This document shows, one piece after another, positions 48,539-57,898 of a stretch of 64,000 nucleotides of DNA. Every line of letters begins with the position of its first letter. Position 1 is the stretch's first letter. The notes beneath the pieces were generated by a model, which ran no database searches, had not been told where the DNA came from, and was given only the letters and a program-made list of their open reading frames with translations. This DNA is from Bryobacterales bacterium (lineage in GTDB: Bacteria > Acidobacteriota > Terriglobia > Bryobacterales > UBA6623), in the NCBI GenBank assembly GCA_028819255.1, contig JAPPMB010000002.1, positions 1 through 64,000 on the forward strand, written 5' to 3'. Position numbers and translations under genes: made by a program.

Positions 48539-49183
48539 ATGCGGAGTGCATTGATTGTGATTTCCCTGACCCTCGGGCTGGTTGGGCCCGGACTTGCCCA
48601 GGAGGCCGAGCTCGATTCAGCCGTTGTTGAGAAGATCGAGGAGCTGGGCGGCAGGGTCATGCGGGTCGCCCAGAATGATCCCGGCGTCGAAGTGTCCTTT
48701 CATCTGGGCCGAAACCGCGACGGCTTGCGCCGTCACGATGCCCCGAAGCCCGGCGAGCCCGAACCACCGGCCATTGACGACGGGCTGGCGGCACTGGGCG
48801 GCCTTGAATTGGTCTCGCTGCACCTTGGCGGCACCGACGTGACCGATGCCGGCCTGTCACACCTGGCCGGCCTGACGTCGTTGAAGCGCCTTCATCTCGA
48901 GAATACTGGGATTACGGACGCCGGCTTGGTTCATCTCGCCGAGCTGGAAGAGCTTCTGTATCTCAACCTGTATCAGACCGAGGTGTCGGATGCGGGCCTG
49001 AGCCACCTCCAGGGACTGAAGAACCTCAAGAACCTCTACTTGTGGCAGACAAACGTCACGCCCGAAGGAGCTGCGTCGCTCAAGGAATCCCTTACCGAAT
49101 GCGACGTGGACCTTGGCTGGCAGGAGCCGGAGGAGGCCGAGGAGCCGGAGGAGGCCGAGGAATCAGCCGACCCCGACGCCTGA
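48539..49183 (+). CDS. Exported leucine-rich-repeat protein
   Basis: A 214-residue protein with signal peptide (ALIVISLTLGLVGPGLAQ) and four to five leucine-rich repeats of the bacterial 'TDAGLxHLAGLTSLKxLxLxxT' type (residues about 85-185), which form a small solenoid for protein binding. The C-terminus is a low-complexity acidic tail built from a repeated EPEEAE unit (DNA repeat GAGCCGGAGGAGGCCGAG at about 49127-49160). A strong ribosome site, AAAAGGAGG, lies 5 bases before the ATG. Role unknown; it may be a small adhesion or envelope scaffold. Confidence 0.88.
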   Translation: MRSALIVISLTLGLVGPGLAQEAELDSAVVEKIEELGGRVMRVAQNDPGVEVSFHLGRNRDGLRRHDAPKPGEPEPPAIDDGLAALGGLELVSLHLGGTDVTDAGLSHLAGLTSLKRLHLENTGITDAGLVHLAELEELLYLNLYQTEVSDAGLSHLQGLKNLKNLYLWQTNVTPEGAASLKESLTECDVDLGWQEPEEAEEPEEAEESADPDA

Positions 49184-49454: not shown

Positions 49455-50276
49455 TTGTCACTCCGTTCGCTGGAAATCCTCAATCCCGACGCCAGTGCGG
49501 CCAATGCCCGCGTGGGGCTGTTCGACTTTGACGGCACTCTGTCCCTGGTCAGGGCGGGCTGGTTCGACGTCATGGTACCCATGATGGTCGAAGTCCTTGC
49601 AGACCTTGGCACCGGCGAGTCCGAGGAGGAGCTGACGGCCATCGTCGAGGAATACGTTGGACAGCTCACCGGGCGCCAGACGATCTACCAGATGATCGAG
49701 TTCGCCGATCAGATCCGCCGCAGGGGCGGAGTTCCCAGGGATCCCATGGAGTACAAGCACGACTACCTGGAGCTGCTGATGGTGAGGATTCGGCACCGGA
49801 GGGAGGCGTTGCGGGCAGGGAGACTGGATCCCGACGAAATGATGGTGCCCGGCGGACGCCGGCTCCTGGACGCCCTGCGTCAGCGTGGCATGAAGCTCTT
49901 TCTCGCCAGCGGCACGGATCAGCCGTTCATGCGGGAGGAGGCCCGTCTGCTGCAGGTCGATTCGTACTTCGAGGGCGGCATTTACGGTGCCCGCGACGAC
50001 TACCGGAACTTCTCCAAGAAGATCCTCGTCGAGCAGATCATCCGGGAGAGCGATTATCAGGGCGGCGACTTTCTGGGTTTCGGTGACGGATTTGTGGAGG
50101 TCGATGTCGTCAAGTCCGTCGGGGGGCACGCCGTAGGGGTTGCGACCGACGAGCCCAACTGTGTCGAGGTCGATCCGGTCAAGCGCCGGCGCCTCGCCGG
50201 CGTGGGCGCCGATTGGATAGTGCCCAACTTCAATGCGCACAATGAACTGATGACGGCGATGTTCGGGTCTTGCTGA
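49455..50276 (+). CDS. HAD-superfamily phosphatase
   Basis: A 273-residue haloacid-dehalogenase-type hydrolase, the first gene of a four-gene unit. Motif I with the nucleophile Asp is FDFDGTLS (about 22-29); a helical cap (about 40-110); motif II LASGTD; motif III Lys (FSKKILVEQ); motif IV GFGDGFVEVDVVKSVGG. It should remove phosphate from a small sugar phosphate. The start is unsure: TTG 49455 gives the length shown but lacks a clear ribosome site; GTG 49512 would begin immediately before the Asp motif and is too late. The deoxyhypusine-synthase-like gene begins 40 bases after the stop, preceded by GAGGAG. Confidence 0.85.
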   Translation: MSLRSLEILNPDASAANARVGLFDFDGTLSLVRAGWFDVMVPMMVEVLADLGTGESEEELTAIVEEYVGQLTGRQTIYQMIEFADQIRRRGGVPRDPMEYKHDYLELLMVRIRHRREALRAGRLDPDEMMVPGGRRLLDALRQRGMKLFLASGTDQPFMREEARLLQVDSYFEGGIYGARDDYRNFSKKILVEQIIRESDYQGGDFLGFGDGFVEVDVVKSVGGHAVGVATDEPNCVEVDPVKRRRLAGVGADWIVPNFNAHNELMTAMFGSC

Positions 50277-50316
50277 CGGAGCCCGCCGAAGCAGCCTGCG
50301 AGGAGATCACAGCTAG

Positions 50317-51303
50317 ATGCAATCGAAGTATCCGGTCTTTGACCGTTCCCGCCTCCGAGTCCGCCCCTTGAGGGAGCGCGAGCACGATATGGATCTCGGC
50401 CACCTCCTGGCCGTTGACGAGCAGGTGGAGGAAGCCGACTCTAAGCTGGCTGCGGCACTTGAACTGGTGGCGCCGAGGCTTGCCGCGAGCGGACCGGCCG
50501 CAAGGATTCTCATGATGGGAGCCCATGTCATTAAGTCGGGGGTGTCCCGACAGGTCATCGACCTGCTCGAGAGGGGGGCGTTCACGCACGTCGCCATGAA
50601 CGGCGCCGGAGCGATTCACGACTTCGAACTGGCGCGAATTGGGGCCACGACCGAGAGCGTCGCCCGATACATCCGGACCGGTGAGTTCGGCCTGTGGGAC
50701 GAGACAGCGATTCTCAACGACTGGGCCGTTGACGGAGCCCGGATCGGCCTGGGCCTGGGCGAGAACTTCGGGCGACGGATCCTCGAGGATAGGCTCCCGC
50801 ATCGGGACGTCAGCATTCTTGCACGGGCCTACGAGCTAGGCGTTCCGGTGACGGTCCATGTCGGTGTCGGCTACGACATCACCCATGAGCATCCCAATTG
50901 CGACGGGGCGGCCTACGGAGCCGGCAGCTACAGGGACTTCCTGATCTACACCAAGTCGGTCGAGAGCTTGGAGGGCGGCATCATGGTGAGCCTTGGATCG
51001 GCCATCATGGGACCGGAAGTCTATCTCAAAGCCCTCGCGATGGCCCGCAACGTCGCCCGACAGGAAGGGCGCCCGATCACCGACTTCATGACTGCGGTCT
51101 TCGACTTGGTACCGATCCAAGGGGACGTGCACCGAGAGCTCCCCAAGAGCGATCCCGGCTACTACTTCCGGCCGCACAAGACCATTCTGGTGCGGACCGT
51201 GGCGGACGGCGGCCAGAGCCTGTACATTCGCGGCGACCACCGCATCACGGTTCCGGCCCTGCGTCGGGCTGTATCGGAGTGCATGAAGGCCCATGCAGGA
51301 TGA
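50317..51303 (+). CDS. Deoxyhypusine-synthase-like protein
   Basis: A 328-residue protein with deoxyhypusine synthase (DHS)-family features: a glycine-rich nucleotide-binding strand (ILMMGAHVIKSGVSRQVID), the HVAMNGAGAIHDFE block, SILARAYELGVPVTVH, and GGIMVSLGSAIMGPEVYLKA near the C-terminus. True DHS uses NAD+ and spermidine to modify eIF5A, which bacteria lack, so bacterial members have other, mostly unknown, roles. Its stop overlaps the PfkB gene start as ATGA (51300-51303), so it is coupled to a sugar-kinase pathway. I infer an NAD-dependent transfer onto a sugar or related metabolite. The catalytic lysine of DHS cannot be placed with confidence. Confidence 0.75.
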   Translation: MQSKYPVFDRSRLRVRPLREREHDMDLGHLLAVDEQVEEADSKLAAALELVAPRLAASGPAARILMMGAHVIKSGVSRQVIDLLERGAFTHVAMNGAGAIHDFELARIGATTESVARYIRTGEFGLWDETAILNDWAVDGARIGLGLGENFGRRILEDRLPHRDVSILARAYELGVPVTVHVGVGYDITHEHPNCDGAAYGAGSYRDFLIYTKSVESLEGGIMVSLGSAIMGPEVYLKALAMARNVARQEGRPITDFMTAVFDLVPIQGDVHRELPKSDPGYYFRPHKTILVRTVADGGQSLYIRGDHRITVPALRRAVSECMKAHAG

Positions 51304-52304
51304 CCTGCGACGAGGTGCTCGCGGGCGCCGCGGACGCCCGCATGCTGGTTGTCGGAGACATCTGTCTGGACCGCTGGTGCCGGTACGATCCGTCGTTGGG
51401 CGAGCCGTCTGCGGAGACGGGCATCCCTCGGGTCGCGGTCACAGGCACCTCCGTGACGCCTGGCGCGGGAGGAACCGTTGCGGCCAACCTGGCCGCGCTA
51501 AACGTGGGCCATGTCGGCGTGCTCGGGGCGGTTGGCGAGGACGGACATGCTCACGAGCTGCGCGAGGCCCTCAGGGCGCGACGGATCGGGATAGGACACC
51601 TGGTTTCGACCGACGCCGCAGCGACATTCACGTACACCAAGCTGATCAATGACAGGACAGGGCGGGAGGACTTGCCGCGGGTCGACTTCGTCAACGCGAG
51701 GCCCCTGCCTCAAGCTGCCGAGCGACGGCTGGTGAACCGCTTTCTGAGCGTTGCGGACGACTACGATGCGGTGATCGTGGCTGACCAGGCGGAGACCGAC
51801 CAGGGGGGTGTGGTGACACCGCGGCTTCGGGAGGCAGCCTGCGAACGCGCGCTGGCCCGTCCCGGGCAGATCTTCGTCGCTGACTCGCGCCGCCGGGTCC
51901 AGCGCTTCCGCAACGTGATCGCGACTCCGAACGAGTCCGAGGCCGCGTTGGCGTGCATCGAGGAGTTTGGAGAGGCCGACACCTCTTCCTTCGGTAGGCT
52001 GCACCGGTTGATCGGCGGCCCCGCCTTGGTCGTTTCGGCGGGGGGAGCGGGAGCCTGGCTTGTCGATGATTGCGGATCGCGTCTTCTGCAGTCCCGTGCC
52101 GCGGGCGACGTGGTCGATGTCTGTGGGGCGGGAGACAGTCTGGCGGCCGGCCTCGCCCTGGCGCTCGTTTCAGGAGCGGGGATCGAGTCCGCGCTGCGGT
52201 TTGGCATAATCGTGGCGGGAGTTACCGTCACCAAGCCGGGCACGGGGACGGCGAGCCCGCAAGAGGTGCTGGCGGTCGCGGCTTCAGCCGCCGGCGGCAG
52301 GTGA
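51300..52304 (+). CDS. PfkB-family sugar kinase, HldE-kinase-like
   Basis: A 334-residue ribokinase-type enzyme. N-terminal GDICLDRW and GAGGTVAANLAALN, and the C-terminal phosphoryl-transfer motif VDVCGAGDSLAAGLALALVSG with catalytic Asp, match the kinase half of HldE/RfaE, which phosphorylates D-glycero-D-manno-heptose 7-phosphate. There is no nucleotidyltransferase half. The start ATG 51300 overlaps the preceding stop (ATGA). The next gene follows after 3 bases. Placed between DHS-like and GmhA-like genes, it likely phosphorylates a sugar phosphate made by the SIS protein. Confidence 0.88.
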   Translation: MTCDEVLAGAADARMLVVGDICLDRWCRYDPSLGEPSAETGIPRVAVTGTSVTPGAGGTVAANLAALNVGHVGVLGAVGEDGHAHELREALRARRIGIGHLVSTDAAATFTYTKLINDRTGREDLPRVDFVNARPLPQAAERRLVNRFLSVADDYDAVIVADQAETDQGGVVTPRLREAACERALARPGQIFVADSRRRVQRFRNVIATPNESEAALACIEEFGEADTSSFGRLHRLIGGPALVVSAGGAGAWLVDDCGSRLLQSRAAGDVVDVCGAGDSLAAGLALALVSGAGIESALRFGIIVAGVTVTKPGTGTASPQEVLAVAASAAGGR

Positions 52305-52307
52305 GGC

Positions 52308-52865
52308 ATGTCCTTCGCAAGAGACTACAAACAGCAACTTCTGAGAGCATTGGACTCCGTCGACCTCGACAGGGTCGAGGGGCTGATCGATGTTTTTCGC
52401 CGGGCTCGAGAAGAGGATCGGCAGATCTTCGTGTTCGGGAACGGCGGCAGCGCGGCCACCGCGAACCACTTCGCCTGCGACATCGTCAAGGGGGCGAGCT
52501 ACGGCCGGGACAGGCGGTTCCGCATCCTGTCCCTCAGTGAGCAGATCCCGACTATGACGGCATACTCCAACGACGTGGGCTACGAGAGTGTGTTCGTGGA
52601 GCCGCTGAGGAATTTCGCCCGGCCGGGGGACGTGGCGATGGGGATCAGCGGCAGCGGCGATTCCGAGAACGTGGTGCAGGCAATCAACTACGCCAACTCG
52701 ATCGGATGCTACACCGTGGGGTTGAGCGGTATCACTGGCGGCAGGCTGCGCCCCAGCGTCGACCTGAGCCTCCATGTGGGCGACCACCACATGGGACGGG
52801 TCGAGGACGCCCATTTCTTCATCTGCCACATGGTCTGCTACCACTTCATGGACACCGAGACGTAG
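52308..52865 (+). CDS. SIS-domain phosphosugar isomerase, GmhA-like
   Basis: A 185-residue single-SIS protein most like sedoheptulose-7-phosphate isomerase GmhA: VFGNGGSAATANHFACDI is the phosphate-binding loop, then GISGSGDSENVVQAINYAN and a C-terminal EDAHFFICHMVCYHFM helix. GmhA makes heptose 7-phosphate for ADP-heptose. Here it follows the PfkB gene by 3 bases. With a kinase and HAD phosphatase it reproduces three of the enzyme types of heptose activation. The adenylyltransferase is missing from the window. Metal and active-site His assignments are not attempted. Confidence 0.87.
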   Translation: MSFARDYKQQLLRALDSVDLDRVEGLIDVFRRAREEDRQIFVFGNGGSAATANHFACDIVKGASYGRDRRFRILSLSEQIPTMTAYSNDVGYESVFVEPLRNFARPGDVAMGISGSGDSENVVQAINYANSIGCYTVGLSGITGGRLRPSVDLSLHVGDHHMGRVEDAHFFICHMVCYHFMDTET

Positions 52866-52894: not shown

Positions 52895-53704
52895 CTAGAG
52901 GGGAGCCCGACCGATGCGGACGCGGCTGGATCGGCGGTTGCGGTTCGGGTCCGGTCCGGCTCCGTAGTTTCCGCCCCGCTGGCCAATGTTCCGGTCGAAC
53001 CGCAGGTCGTCCTCGTCGAACTGCAGATCCCCTTCGAGGAGCATCTCAAGGTGCGTTCCGCGGTCGAGCATCGCGTCGGGGCCGCGGGTGAGAAGCACCC
53101 TCGCCGTGCCGGCCGCCGCGCCGGCGGCTGCCCCAATGCCCGTCCCAGCGCCCCGCCGCCCAGAGATCGCTCCAGCCAGCACGCCGATCGAGGCACCCGC
53201 AGCTGTTGTTCGAGCGATGTCCTCCGCATCCTCGCCCTTCGTGCCCTCCGACTTGATTTCTCCAGACTCGCGGTCAAGACTGTCGGGTGATCGCCCGTCA
53301 AGCATGTCAGGGCGTCCGGCGAGACTGCGAATCACCCCATTCGGGAGGATCATTTCGTCGAGCCGGACCATCAGCTTGCCTCGGCCCTTGATCCGGCCGG
53401 GGCGCTTGGCGTGCGTCACCGTGCCCGACACATGGGTTCCAGTCGGGATTACAATCCGGCCGTCCTGGACCACCGGGTAGACGGACTCCAGGTAGACTGG
53501 ATCCCCTGCCTTGGAGTGCTTCGAGCTCACGCTGTTGATCATCACCAGCGGCACGCGGGTTCCCGCTGGAATCGTGACCGTGTCGGTGGCCGGCACGCCT
53601 CCCTCTGTTTCGTCGTTGTTCTCCGGCGAGACGGACTCCGCAGAGCCGAATGCCAGAGTGGCCAGCAACAAGCCCGCCGCAGCCGCCGTGATGATGCGAT
53701 TCAT
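52895..53704 (-). CDS. Exported protein with TrbI/VirB10-like beta domain and Gly-rich segment
   Basis: A 269-residue protein. Signal peptide (IITAAAAGLLLATLAFGSAES), then a beta-rich module (TVTIPAGTRVPLVMINSVS, IVIPTGTHVSGTVTHAKRPG) like the 'pre-set value' domains of TrbI/VirB10-type proteins and related acidobacterial hypotheticals, then a Gly/Ala-rich stretch (GAISGRRGAGTGIGAAAGAA) resembling a glycine zipper, and an Asp/Arg-rich tail. ATG 53704 is used because AGGGG lies 8 bases before it; ATG 53710 is an alternative. A minus-strand TAGAAT at 53787-53782 may be its promoter. Role unknown; probably envelope-associated. Confidence 0.75.
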   Translation of the reverse strand: MNRIITAAAAGLLLATLAFGSAESVSPENNDETEGGVPATDTVTIPAGTRVPLVMINSVSSKHSKAGDPVYLESVYPVVQDGRIVIPTGTHVSGTVTHAKRPGRIKGRGKLMVRLDEMILPNGVIRSLAGRPDMLDGRSPDSLDRESGEIKSEGTKGEDAEDIARTTAAGASIGVLAGAISGRRGAGTGIGAAAGAAAGTARVLLTRGPDAMLDRGTHLEMLLEGDLQFDEDDLRFDRNIGQRGGNYGAGPDPNRNRRSSRVRIGRAPL

Positions 53705-53828
53705 GTCCATGCCCCTGCGCTCTCTGTGATTCCGGCCCCTGGTCGGGAGCGGTTGCCACGCTGTTCTCACTAGATGAAACGATTCTAATGGCCAGCCGGT
53801 TTCAATCCCGGGCAGGCCGACCTGTTGC

Positions 53829-56341: not shown

Positions 56342-56977
56342 CTAGCGGTGGTGCCTGGGCGCGACGAGGGAAAGGAACTCCTCGCGCGTCTTCGGATTGT
56401 CGCGGAACGCGCCCATCATCGCGCTCGTGATCGTGGCCGAGTGCTGCTTCTCCACTCCGCGCATCATCATGCAGAGGTGCTGTGCCTCGCAGATCACGCC
56501 CACACCTTCCGGATCGATCGCGTTCTGAATCGTCTCTGCAACCTGCTGCGTCAGCCTCTCCTGGATCTGCAGCCGCCGGGCGAAGATGTCCACCAGCCGG
56601 GCGGTCTTGCTCAAGCCGATGACCTTCTTTCGGGGAATGTAGGCCACGTGCAGCTTGCCGAAGAACGGCAGCATGTGGTGCTCGCACAGTGAAAAGACCT
56701 CGATGTCCTTCACAATGACCATTTCGTCGTATGTGACATCGAAGAGGGCGGACCGCACGACTGCTTCCGGGTCCTGCGAGTAGCCCCGAGTGAGCTCTCG
56801 AAGGGCCTTGGCGACTCGTAGCGGTGTGTTCTTGAGCCCGTCCCGATCCGGATCTTCCCCGAGATGTTGCAGGATTCCGTGGACTAGGGGCTGCATCGGT
56901 TCCTCGTCCTTCAGCGACTCCTCGATCTCCTCGAGGTAGTCGCCGGTAAGAAGCTGGTTGAGGTCGGTTGCTGGCAT
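56342..56977 (-). CDS. folE: GTP cyclohydrolase I
   Basis: A 211-residue GTP cyclohydrolase I converting GTP to 7,8-dihydroneopterin triphosphate, the first step of folate and tetrahydropterin synthesis. Zinc and active-site residues are in [12 protein letters not shown] (Cys98, His100, His101) and [10 protein letters not shown]. Full family length, with the C-terminal [19 protein letters not shown] conserved. It is the last gene of a minus-strand unit after two PTPS-type genes, starting 29 bases after the first one's stop. This pairing suggests dihydroneopterin triphosphate goes straight to the PTPS enzymes. Confidence 0.96.
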
Positions 56978-57006
56978 GCGGTGTCCTGTACTCGGATGCG
57001 TGTCGG

Positions 57007-57423
57007 CTAGATGCGGAAGCTGTTGCGCGGCGTCTCCTCGAGACGCAGCCCGGCGAGGCGCAGGGCCTGGCCGGGAAAGTGCTTGTGCCAGCCTTCGCGA
57101 AGCCAGGCCTCGATGACGACGAGCACGTTCTCGGATGTGGGTACGAGGTCGAGGAACTCCGGCAGCTCCGCGTTGAGATGAGTGTGGTCGATCCGGTCAA
57201 GAACCGAGTCCTCGACCCAGCCGTCCATCGAGGCCCGTGGCATGGTCAGTCCCCGGGATGTGTCCGGGTCGCCGGCGACGCTGACCTCCAGGCAGTAGTT
57301 GTGGCCGTGTCCGAACGGATTGGCGCACTTGCCGAAAATCTCCCGGTTCCGTTCCTCGGTGAGGCTGGGGGCGAACAGGCGGTGCGACGCTGCAAAGGAA
57401 TAGCGCTTGGTGAGAGTCGTCAT
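57007..57423 (-). CDS. 6-pyruvoyl-tetrahydropterin synthase-like (Cys type)
   Basis: A 138-residue PTPS/QueD-family enzyme acting on dihydroneopterin triphosphate. Zinc ligand His14 and the HGHNY motif (39-43); the catalytic Cys is present at position 33 in [11 protein letters not shown], the eukaryotic-type spacing. Later family residues DRIDHTHLN and [14 protein letters not shown] are also present. The ATG at 57423 overlaps the stop of the next upstream PTPS paralogue (ATGA), and folE follows 29 bases later. It probably makes 6-pyruvoyl-tetrahydropterin or a side-chain-shortened product. Confidence 0.92.
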
Positions 57424-57839
57424 CGGCCCTCCTCCCCGCTGTAGTCCACAAACAGGTCGTCGCTCTCGTGAAGCCGGACCGAATGCAGGGTGCTGCCCAT
57501 CGCTGCAACCGGCGCGTCCAGACGACGCCAGATGTCCCGGGCAATGTTCTCCGCCGTCGGCACGATCCGGTCGAACGGAGGAACCTCGACGTTGAGGAAT
57601 CGATGGTCGTACACGTTGAGGACCCGATCGCGAATGATGCCCTTGAGGGCCTTGAGGTCCAGCACCATTCCGTGAACGGGATCGACGTCGCCCCTCAGGG
57701 TCACCTCAAGTACGTAGTTGTGGCCGTGCCCGTGCGGCCGGCTCTCCCTCCCGTACAGCCGCTCGTTCTCCTCGGGCGAGAGGCTCGGGTCGGAGCACAC
57801 ATGAGAGGCCGAGAATTCGGCTTTTCGCGTGATCAGCAT
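57420..57839 (-). CDS. PTPS paralogue with Glu replacing the catalytic Cys
   Basis: A 139-residue PTPS-family protein 4 bases overlapping the Cys-type paralogue. The zinc site is kept (HVCSDP region and HGHNY at 38-42), as are DHRFLNVEVPPFD and PTAENIARDIWRRL. But the residue six before HGHNY, Cys33 in its neighbour, is Glu32 here (GRESRPHGHGH). Glu at this place marks PTPS-III-type enzymes, which cleave dihydroneopterin side chains to 6-hydroxymethyl-dihydropterin and replace FolB. ATG 57839 is used; the open frame continues into the divergent promoter region. Divergent from the TlpA gene by 59 bases. Confidence 0.9.
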   Translation of the reverse strand: MLITRKAEFSASHVCSDPSLSPEENERLYGRESRPHGHGHNYVLEVTLRGDVDPVHGMVLDLKALKGIIRDRVLNVYDHRFLNVEVPPFDRIVPTAENIARDIWRRLDAPVAAMGSTLHSVRLHESDDLFVDYSGEEGR

Positions 57840-57898
57840 CGCCTGCGATTTTGCGTTTGCCTCTCTCGGCGGGTAGAGTGGGACTGGAACTTTCAATT

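Follow-up and report, generated by a model that had tools for sequence, protein, structure and literature searches.

We examined a 64,000-nucleotide stretch of DNA from a Bryobacterales bacterium (Acidobacteriota; contig JAPPMB010000002.1, positions 1 to 64,000), hereafter the window, and focused on an operon at 49455-52865 that encodes a HAD protein, a protein predicted to share the fold of deoxyhypusine synthase (DHS), which we call DHSL, a PfkB-family kinase and a SIS-domain isomerase (Table 1). A preliminary description, made from the sequence alone, had reported four closely spaced genes on one strand, and our open reading frame coordinates and intergenic gaps (+40, -4 and +3 bases in the order HAD/DHSL/PfkB/SIS) confirm this layout. 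The closest named relatives of the window genome are Bryobacterales metagenome-assembled genomes (MAGs), with DHSL identities of 84-86%.

Table 1. Coordinates of the operon genes and their flanks within the window
Feature	Position	Strand	Remarks
HAD, C1-capped phosphatase/phosphomutase-like (beta-PGM / AlnB / phosphoglycolate-phosphatase type)	49455..50276	+	273 aa, TTG start
DHSL, GSU2086-family protein, W clade, predicted DHS/ornithine-cyclodeaminase NAD fold	50317..51303	+	328 aa
PfkB-family sugar kinase, HldA/HldE-N-like	51300..52304	+	334 aa
SIS-domain sugar-phosphate isomerase, GmhA-like, altered active-site residues	52308..52865	+	185 aa
Leucine-rich repeat (LRR) gene, upstream flank	48539-49183	+	
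Predicted exported protein, downstream flank	52895-53770	-	weak TrbI match, below cut-off

Recurrence of the operon and identity of its products

The association of these genes is not a chance arrangement, since the gene order recurs within the window's genus (DHSL identity 82-86%) and over the Bryobacterales, down to approximately 61% identity. In a table of 80 named loci plus one locus from a viral collection, HAD-DHSL-PfkB-ROK-SIS occurs exactly in 28 loci, HAD-DHSL-PfkB-ROK in 16, HAD-DHSL-PfkB alone in 12 and the window's own order, HAD-DHSL-PfkB-SIS, in 7, with the remaining loci being mostly variants or cut contigs. The additional ROK gene is absent from the inspected loci of the window's own family and present in many Bryobacteraceae. 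The HAD-DHSL-PfkB trio extends to two further Acidobacteriota families (loci L205, L206 and L211), and in family f21 it is followed by a nucleoside-permease-like transporter gene and a gene that appears mutarotase-like by eye; no conserved gene besides HAD, DHSL, PfkB, ROK and SIS was found in the operon surroundings. The preliminary description had made its proposal depend on recurrence of this order in other genomes, and the order proved to be widespread.

DHSL matches the NCBIfam family GSU2086 (NF052581) at 354.8 bits (4.3e-106), exceeding the curated cut-off of 250 bits, and returned no Pfam match at E <= 0.1, the DS family PF01916 included. Its AlphaFold2 model (predicted local distance difference test, pLDDT, 95; predicted template modelling score, pTM, 0.93) retrieved AgrE (Z 20.5), P. 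horikoshii DHS (Z 19.2) and human DHS-NAD (Z 18.2) as structural matches. Against DHS chains the model aligned over about 250 residues with Z scores of 18-19, which places it among DHS-type NAD folds, at 11-16% identity to DHS and AgrE/ArgZ over the structurally aligned part. Sequence profiles agree with this fold assignment, DHSL matching ArgZ at 3e-6, and a single-sequence PDB search using DHSL gave no match. Together, these findings indicate that DHSL is a member of the uncharacterised GSU2086 family with a predicted DHS/ornithine-cyclodeaminase NAD fold. The earlier label "deoxyhypusine-synthase-like" is thus apt for the fold and misplaced for the family, and the identity of DHSL as a true deoxyhypusine synthase was rejected because it lacks a Pfam DS match and the DS-family gene of this genome is a different one, on contig C130. 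We also dropped K238 as a counterpart of the DHS catalytic lysine; by eye it lies nearer the GGG-x-x-K segment, where the profile alignment carries no confidence.

The three remaining products had been described as a HAD phosphatase, a PfkB kinase and a GmhA-like isomerase, and likened to the GmhA, HldE kinase half and HAD phosphatase that make activated heptose. The HAD protein matches PF00702 (5.8e-11), its FDFDGT motif is invariant across 13 relatives, and its AlphaFold2 model (pLDDT 89) finds AlnB as the best Foldseek match (8.5e-9), with beta-PGM next; no GmhB/HAD-IIIA model was listed at E <= 0.01 among NCBIfam models. A HAD protein it is, but its C1-capped, beta-PGM/AlnB-like structure and lack of a GmhB match led us to reject its identity as GmhB (HAD-IIIA), for which it is at best a non-orthologous stand-in. 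The kinase matches PF00294 (2.8e-24), finds TIGR02198 (HldA / HldE N-domain) as its best NCBIfam model at 143.7 bits, under the equivalog cut-off of 345, and has the heptose-7-phosphate kinase HldA (4e84, 2.6e-25) as its best PDB match. SIS matches PF13580 (2e-17) and scores 101.6 bits against the GmhA model TIGR00441, under the equivalog cut-off of 209.45, and its best PDB matches are phosphoheptose isomerases (GmhA; 3.8e-22). Compared with linked GmhAs, its active site is changed from AAEL to ACDI, from RIQE to RVED and from STS to SGS, and we take the Glu of AAEL and the Gln of RIQE to be GmhA catalytic residues. HldA and GmhA are the closest PDB relatives of the two enzymes, but neither enzyme reaches the respective cut-off and the isomerase active site is altered.

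GSU2086-family clades and the distribution of HldD

A quick tree of 114 family members separates a canonical clade (C), the window clade (W) and a clade S on a long branch, with W and S falling on one side. Residues kept in all clades include, among others, H70, H101, D102, E104, H181, D187, H192, D207, K238 and D263, while T112, S114, W127, Y186, K277, Y282, Y283 and K288 are common to W and S and differ or are gapped in C, K288 being absent there. Some members stand apart from heptose or operon genes. In Bryobacteraceae loci L082-L100 the canonical gene often lies in a uvrA - GSU2086 - CPBP-protease-like - mtnA neighbourhood without heptose genes, and in some other families it lies between queA and tilS. 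A W-clade member in a locus labelled Gemmataceae (L175), perhaps a mislabelled MAG, lies on a contig fragment that carries no linked operon genes, and an IMG/VR contig classed as viral (L181:4995-5945) carries one family relative of ~41% identity to the window DHSL, with no linked operon genes beside it.

The GSU2086 family is linked to heptose genes, namely hldE, gmhA and a heptosyltransferase-like gene. In many loci gmhA adjoins the canonical clade C gene, and genome G176 has the order DHSL-HldE(N+C)-GmhA. The Geobacter neighbourhood hldE-GSU2086-gmhA is already on record: in G. sulfurreducens, GSU2086 lies between GSU2085 (hldE) and GSU2087 (gmhA), and transposon sequencing (Tn-Seq) values of -3.1, -3.2 and -3.7 for GSU2085, GSU2086 and GSU2087 denote alike phenotypes, with no function given for GSU2086 (PMC5585712).

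We then compared the distribution of clade C with that of HldD, called by TIGR02197 above its cut-off. Among 100 Bryobacterales genomes, 61 carry clade C, 16 carry HldD and none carries both. The 80 Bryobacteraceae comprise 61 genomes with C, 15 with HldD and 4 with neither, again with 0 carrying both (11.4 expected, p 6e-13). A sample of 199 Acidobacteriota, in which clade placement was checked against the tree in a subset of genomes, gave about 58 C versus 50 HldD genomes and no overlap (14.6 expected); only two genomes in that sample (G024 and G050) combine HldD with a GSU2086 member over the cut-off, and both members belong to the W clade. Clade C is therefore complementary to HldD in both samples (0 co-occurrences). 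Four genera (g133, g134, g135 and g140) each hold C genomes and HldD genomes without overlap, and these within-genus switches are the stronger argument for C replacing HldD.

The W and S clades relate instead to the operon. Among the 100 genomes, W and S never occur together (p 4e-5). Six operons lack DHSL (L245, L246, L247, L251, L254 and L256), and all six genomes carry S elsewhere; given that S is present wherever the operon has lost W, the operon appears to need the DHSL step, which would then be no bystander. Hardly any genomes with W or S carry canonical GmhA (2 versus 12.5 expected), so the operon-type SIS is usually their sole GmhA-like enzyme. Family searches of the window genome found no HldD and no canonical GmhA, leaving the operon SIS as its only credible GmhA-like isomerase, and recovered an unlinked, stand-alone HldE-C-type nucleotidyltransferase (L222, contig C164) as well as GT9 genes. 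In genome G005, a W-clade DHSL gene lies after the gene for an HldE-like fusion of nucleotidyltransferase and kinase and that for a GmhA-like SIS. The scarcity of GmhA, the HldE-C/GT9 set of the window genome and the G005 locus point to an activated heptose-type sugar. In four Bryobacteraceae loci (L250, L253, L264 and L276), a canonical GmhA, or a W-type SIS on its own, has neighbours that by eye are GHMP-kinase-like, sugar-nucleotidyltransferase-like and flippase-like, as in capsule heptose clusters.

A proposed pathway and its alternatives

Both DHS and ornithine cyclodeaminase oxidize their substrates transiently with bound NAD+ and return the hydride, and HldD epimerises through its own nicotinamide cofactor on a different fold. 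As hydride return at a carbinol carbon would amount to epimerisation, we propose this chemistry for the GSU2086 family. In the reading we favor, at a probability of roughly 45%, the operon would encode non-orthologous enzymes for the isomerase, kinase and phosphatase steps of an ADP-heptose-type pathway, and DHSL would be an NAD-dependent epimerase, with clade C replacing HldD. SIS would turn sedoheptulose 7-phosphate (or a closely related ketose phosphate) into an aldose phosphate, PfkB would phosphorylate it at C1, the C1-capped HAD would remove the distal phosphate and the unlinked HldE-C-type nucleotidyltransferase on contig C164 would activate the product. DHSL would, like its relatives, hold an NAD+ that accepts a hydride from the substrate and then returns it, so that a heptose carbinol is epimerised without net redox change. 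Clade C would thereby perform the C6 epimerisation otherwise catalyzed by HldD, while W and S may catalyze a related change of stereochemistry in the sugar phosphate that the operon itself handles; where both HldD and C are missing, as in most of the window's family, DHSL could itself supply the C6 epimer. We suggest, more tentatively, that this putatively NAD-dependent family on a DHS fold constitutes a hitherto unrecognised second class of heptose epimerase, in which C takes the place of HldD for envelope heptose in Acidobacteriota and Geobacter, and W and S provide a further stereochemical step within an operon of their own whose phosphatase, kinase and isomerase are non-orthologous. The earlier idea that a heptose-like sugar phosphate is made, phosphorylated and dephosphorylated gains from the proximity of PfkB and SIS to HldA and GmhA and from the links to heptose genes, and loses from a HAD protein that is not GmhB and from enzymes that score below their cut-offs.

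Several observations weigh against the epimerase proposal. W shares 31 genomes with C and 4 with HldD (G221, G271, G273 and G292), S shares 9 with HldD and 3 with C, and in four Bryobacteraceae loci (L095, L096, L215 and L216) the S-clade gene adjoins the HldD gene itself. W and S are therefore not simply HldD substitutes in those genomes, and the W clade, also in view of G024 and G050, does not share the complementary distribution of C; we accordingly rejected W as an HldD replacement everywhere. The p-values for C/HldD and W/S treat genomes as independent and ignore phylogeny, genes absent from MAGs may reflect assembly loss, and the family-level test of C/HldD exclusion in the phylum (p 0.21, with W members counted) is not significant on its own, so the case for exclusion rests on the within-family switches. 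Many canonical genes adjoin unrelated genes (uvrA, queA, tilS), and SIS and PfkB fall below the GmhA and HldA equivalog cut-offs. At the level of mechanism, the profile alignment has no confidence in the segment of the DHS catalytic lysine (human K329), whose position was not placed, and carbohydrate epimerisation on the DHS fold is, to our knowledge, without precedent.

The chemistry of W and S might differ more fundamentally. DHSL of these clades could use NAD to install a new group on the sugar, such as an amine by way of an imine bound to a lysine, in the manner of DHS, yielding an amino- or otherwise modified heptose as opposed to an epimer. DHS and ornithine cyclodeaminase, which share the fold, are both known to act on amines, and the W/S-shared K277, Y282, Y283 and K288 lie in or beside an insertion missing from C, so W/S chemistry may differ; however, the operon contains no conserved aminotransferase or amine-donor gene, and the profile alignment does not settle the equivalence of K288 to the DHS lysine. 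We consider such an addition unlikely.

It is likewise improbable, in our assessment, that the operon is a catabolic or salvage module for a sugar phosphate other than heptose, in which ROK or PfkB would phosphorylate an imported or released sugar, SIS would isomerise it, DHSL would oxidize or epimerise it and HAD would dephosphorylate it. The departure of the SIS active site from GmhA, the beta-PGM/AlnB-like HAD, the ROK kinase of many Bryobacteraceae operons and the permease-like and mutarotase-like genes after the trio in f21 would suit such a module, but PfkB is nearest to heptose-7-phosphate kinase, W/S genomes usually have no GmhA-like gene other than that for SIS, the W-clade DHSL of G005 is paired with an HldE-like fusion, and the operon has no conserved transporter across Bryobacterales. 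Finally, that DHSL is a non-catalytic, structural or regulatory partner in a sugar pathway, or that C and HldD exclude each other through an accident of lineage, would accord with phylogenetically correlated genome counts and the phylum-level family test, but is very unlikely given that both states occur within four genera without overlap, polar and charged residues are conserved over all clades, and S turns up in genomes whose operon has lost W.

Elsewhere in the window, at 56342-57896 on the minus strand, folE (GTP cyclohydrolase I) adjoins two tandem, overlapping PTPS/QueD-family genes, a pair of paralogues within one pterin/queuosine-type cluster.

Relation to known systems

Many of the sampled genomes lack HldD although they carry heptose-type genes, which leaves the step that would complete L,D-heptose in them without an assigned enzyme. 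If the epimerase proposal is true, it would give the uncharacterised GSU2086 family a function open to direct testing and bring into sugar chemistry a fold known from amine chemistry and from protein modification. In that case it would also allow heptose pathways to be predicted in Acidobacteriota and Geobacter, and account for the similar Tn-Seq phenotypes of GSU2085-GSU2087. In the collection of papers searched, one mentions GSU2086, and we found no account of GSU2086 function, HldD exclusion, the clade split or the W operon, nor any that joined deoxyhypusine synthase with phosphoheptose isomerase or heptose epimerase.

The nearest described arrangement is Geobacter hldE-GSU2086-gmhA, where the family member likewise lies beside the genes for a heptose kinase and an isomerase of the GmhA type; the window protein differs in belonging to the W clade, at about 36-40% identity to canonical members and with insertions of 4 and 16 residues, in having its own HAD-DHSL-PfkB-SIS operon and in not being complementary to HldD. 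With the ADP-L,D-heptose pathway (GmhA, HldE/HldA, GmhB, HldC, HldD) the window shares a SIS isomerase, a PfkB kinase, a HAD phosphatase and an unlinked HldE-C-type nucleotidyltransferase, whereas its isomerase and kinase fall below the cut-offs, its HAD is of another subclass, HldD is lacking and a predicted DHS-fold enzyme is added. DHSL shares its predicted fold and a distant profile similarity with deoxyhypusine synthase (PF01916) and the ornithine cyclodeaminase domain of AgrE/ArgZ, but is linked to sugar genes and has no Pfam DS match. HldD (TIGR02197) is unrelated to GSU2086 as a protein family, and the likeness between them would lie in the proposed reaction type, in which a bound nicotinamide cofactor oxidizes a single carbon and then reduces it again.

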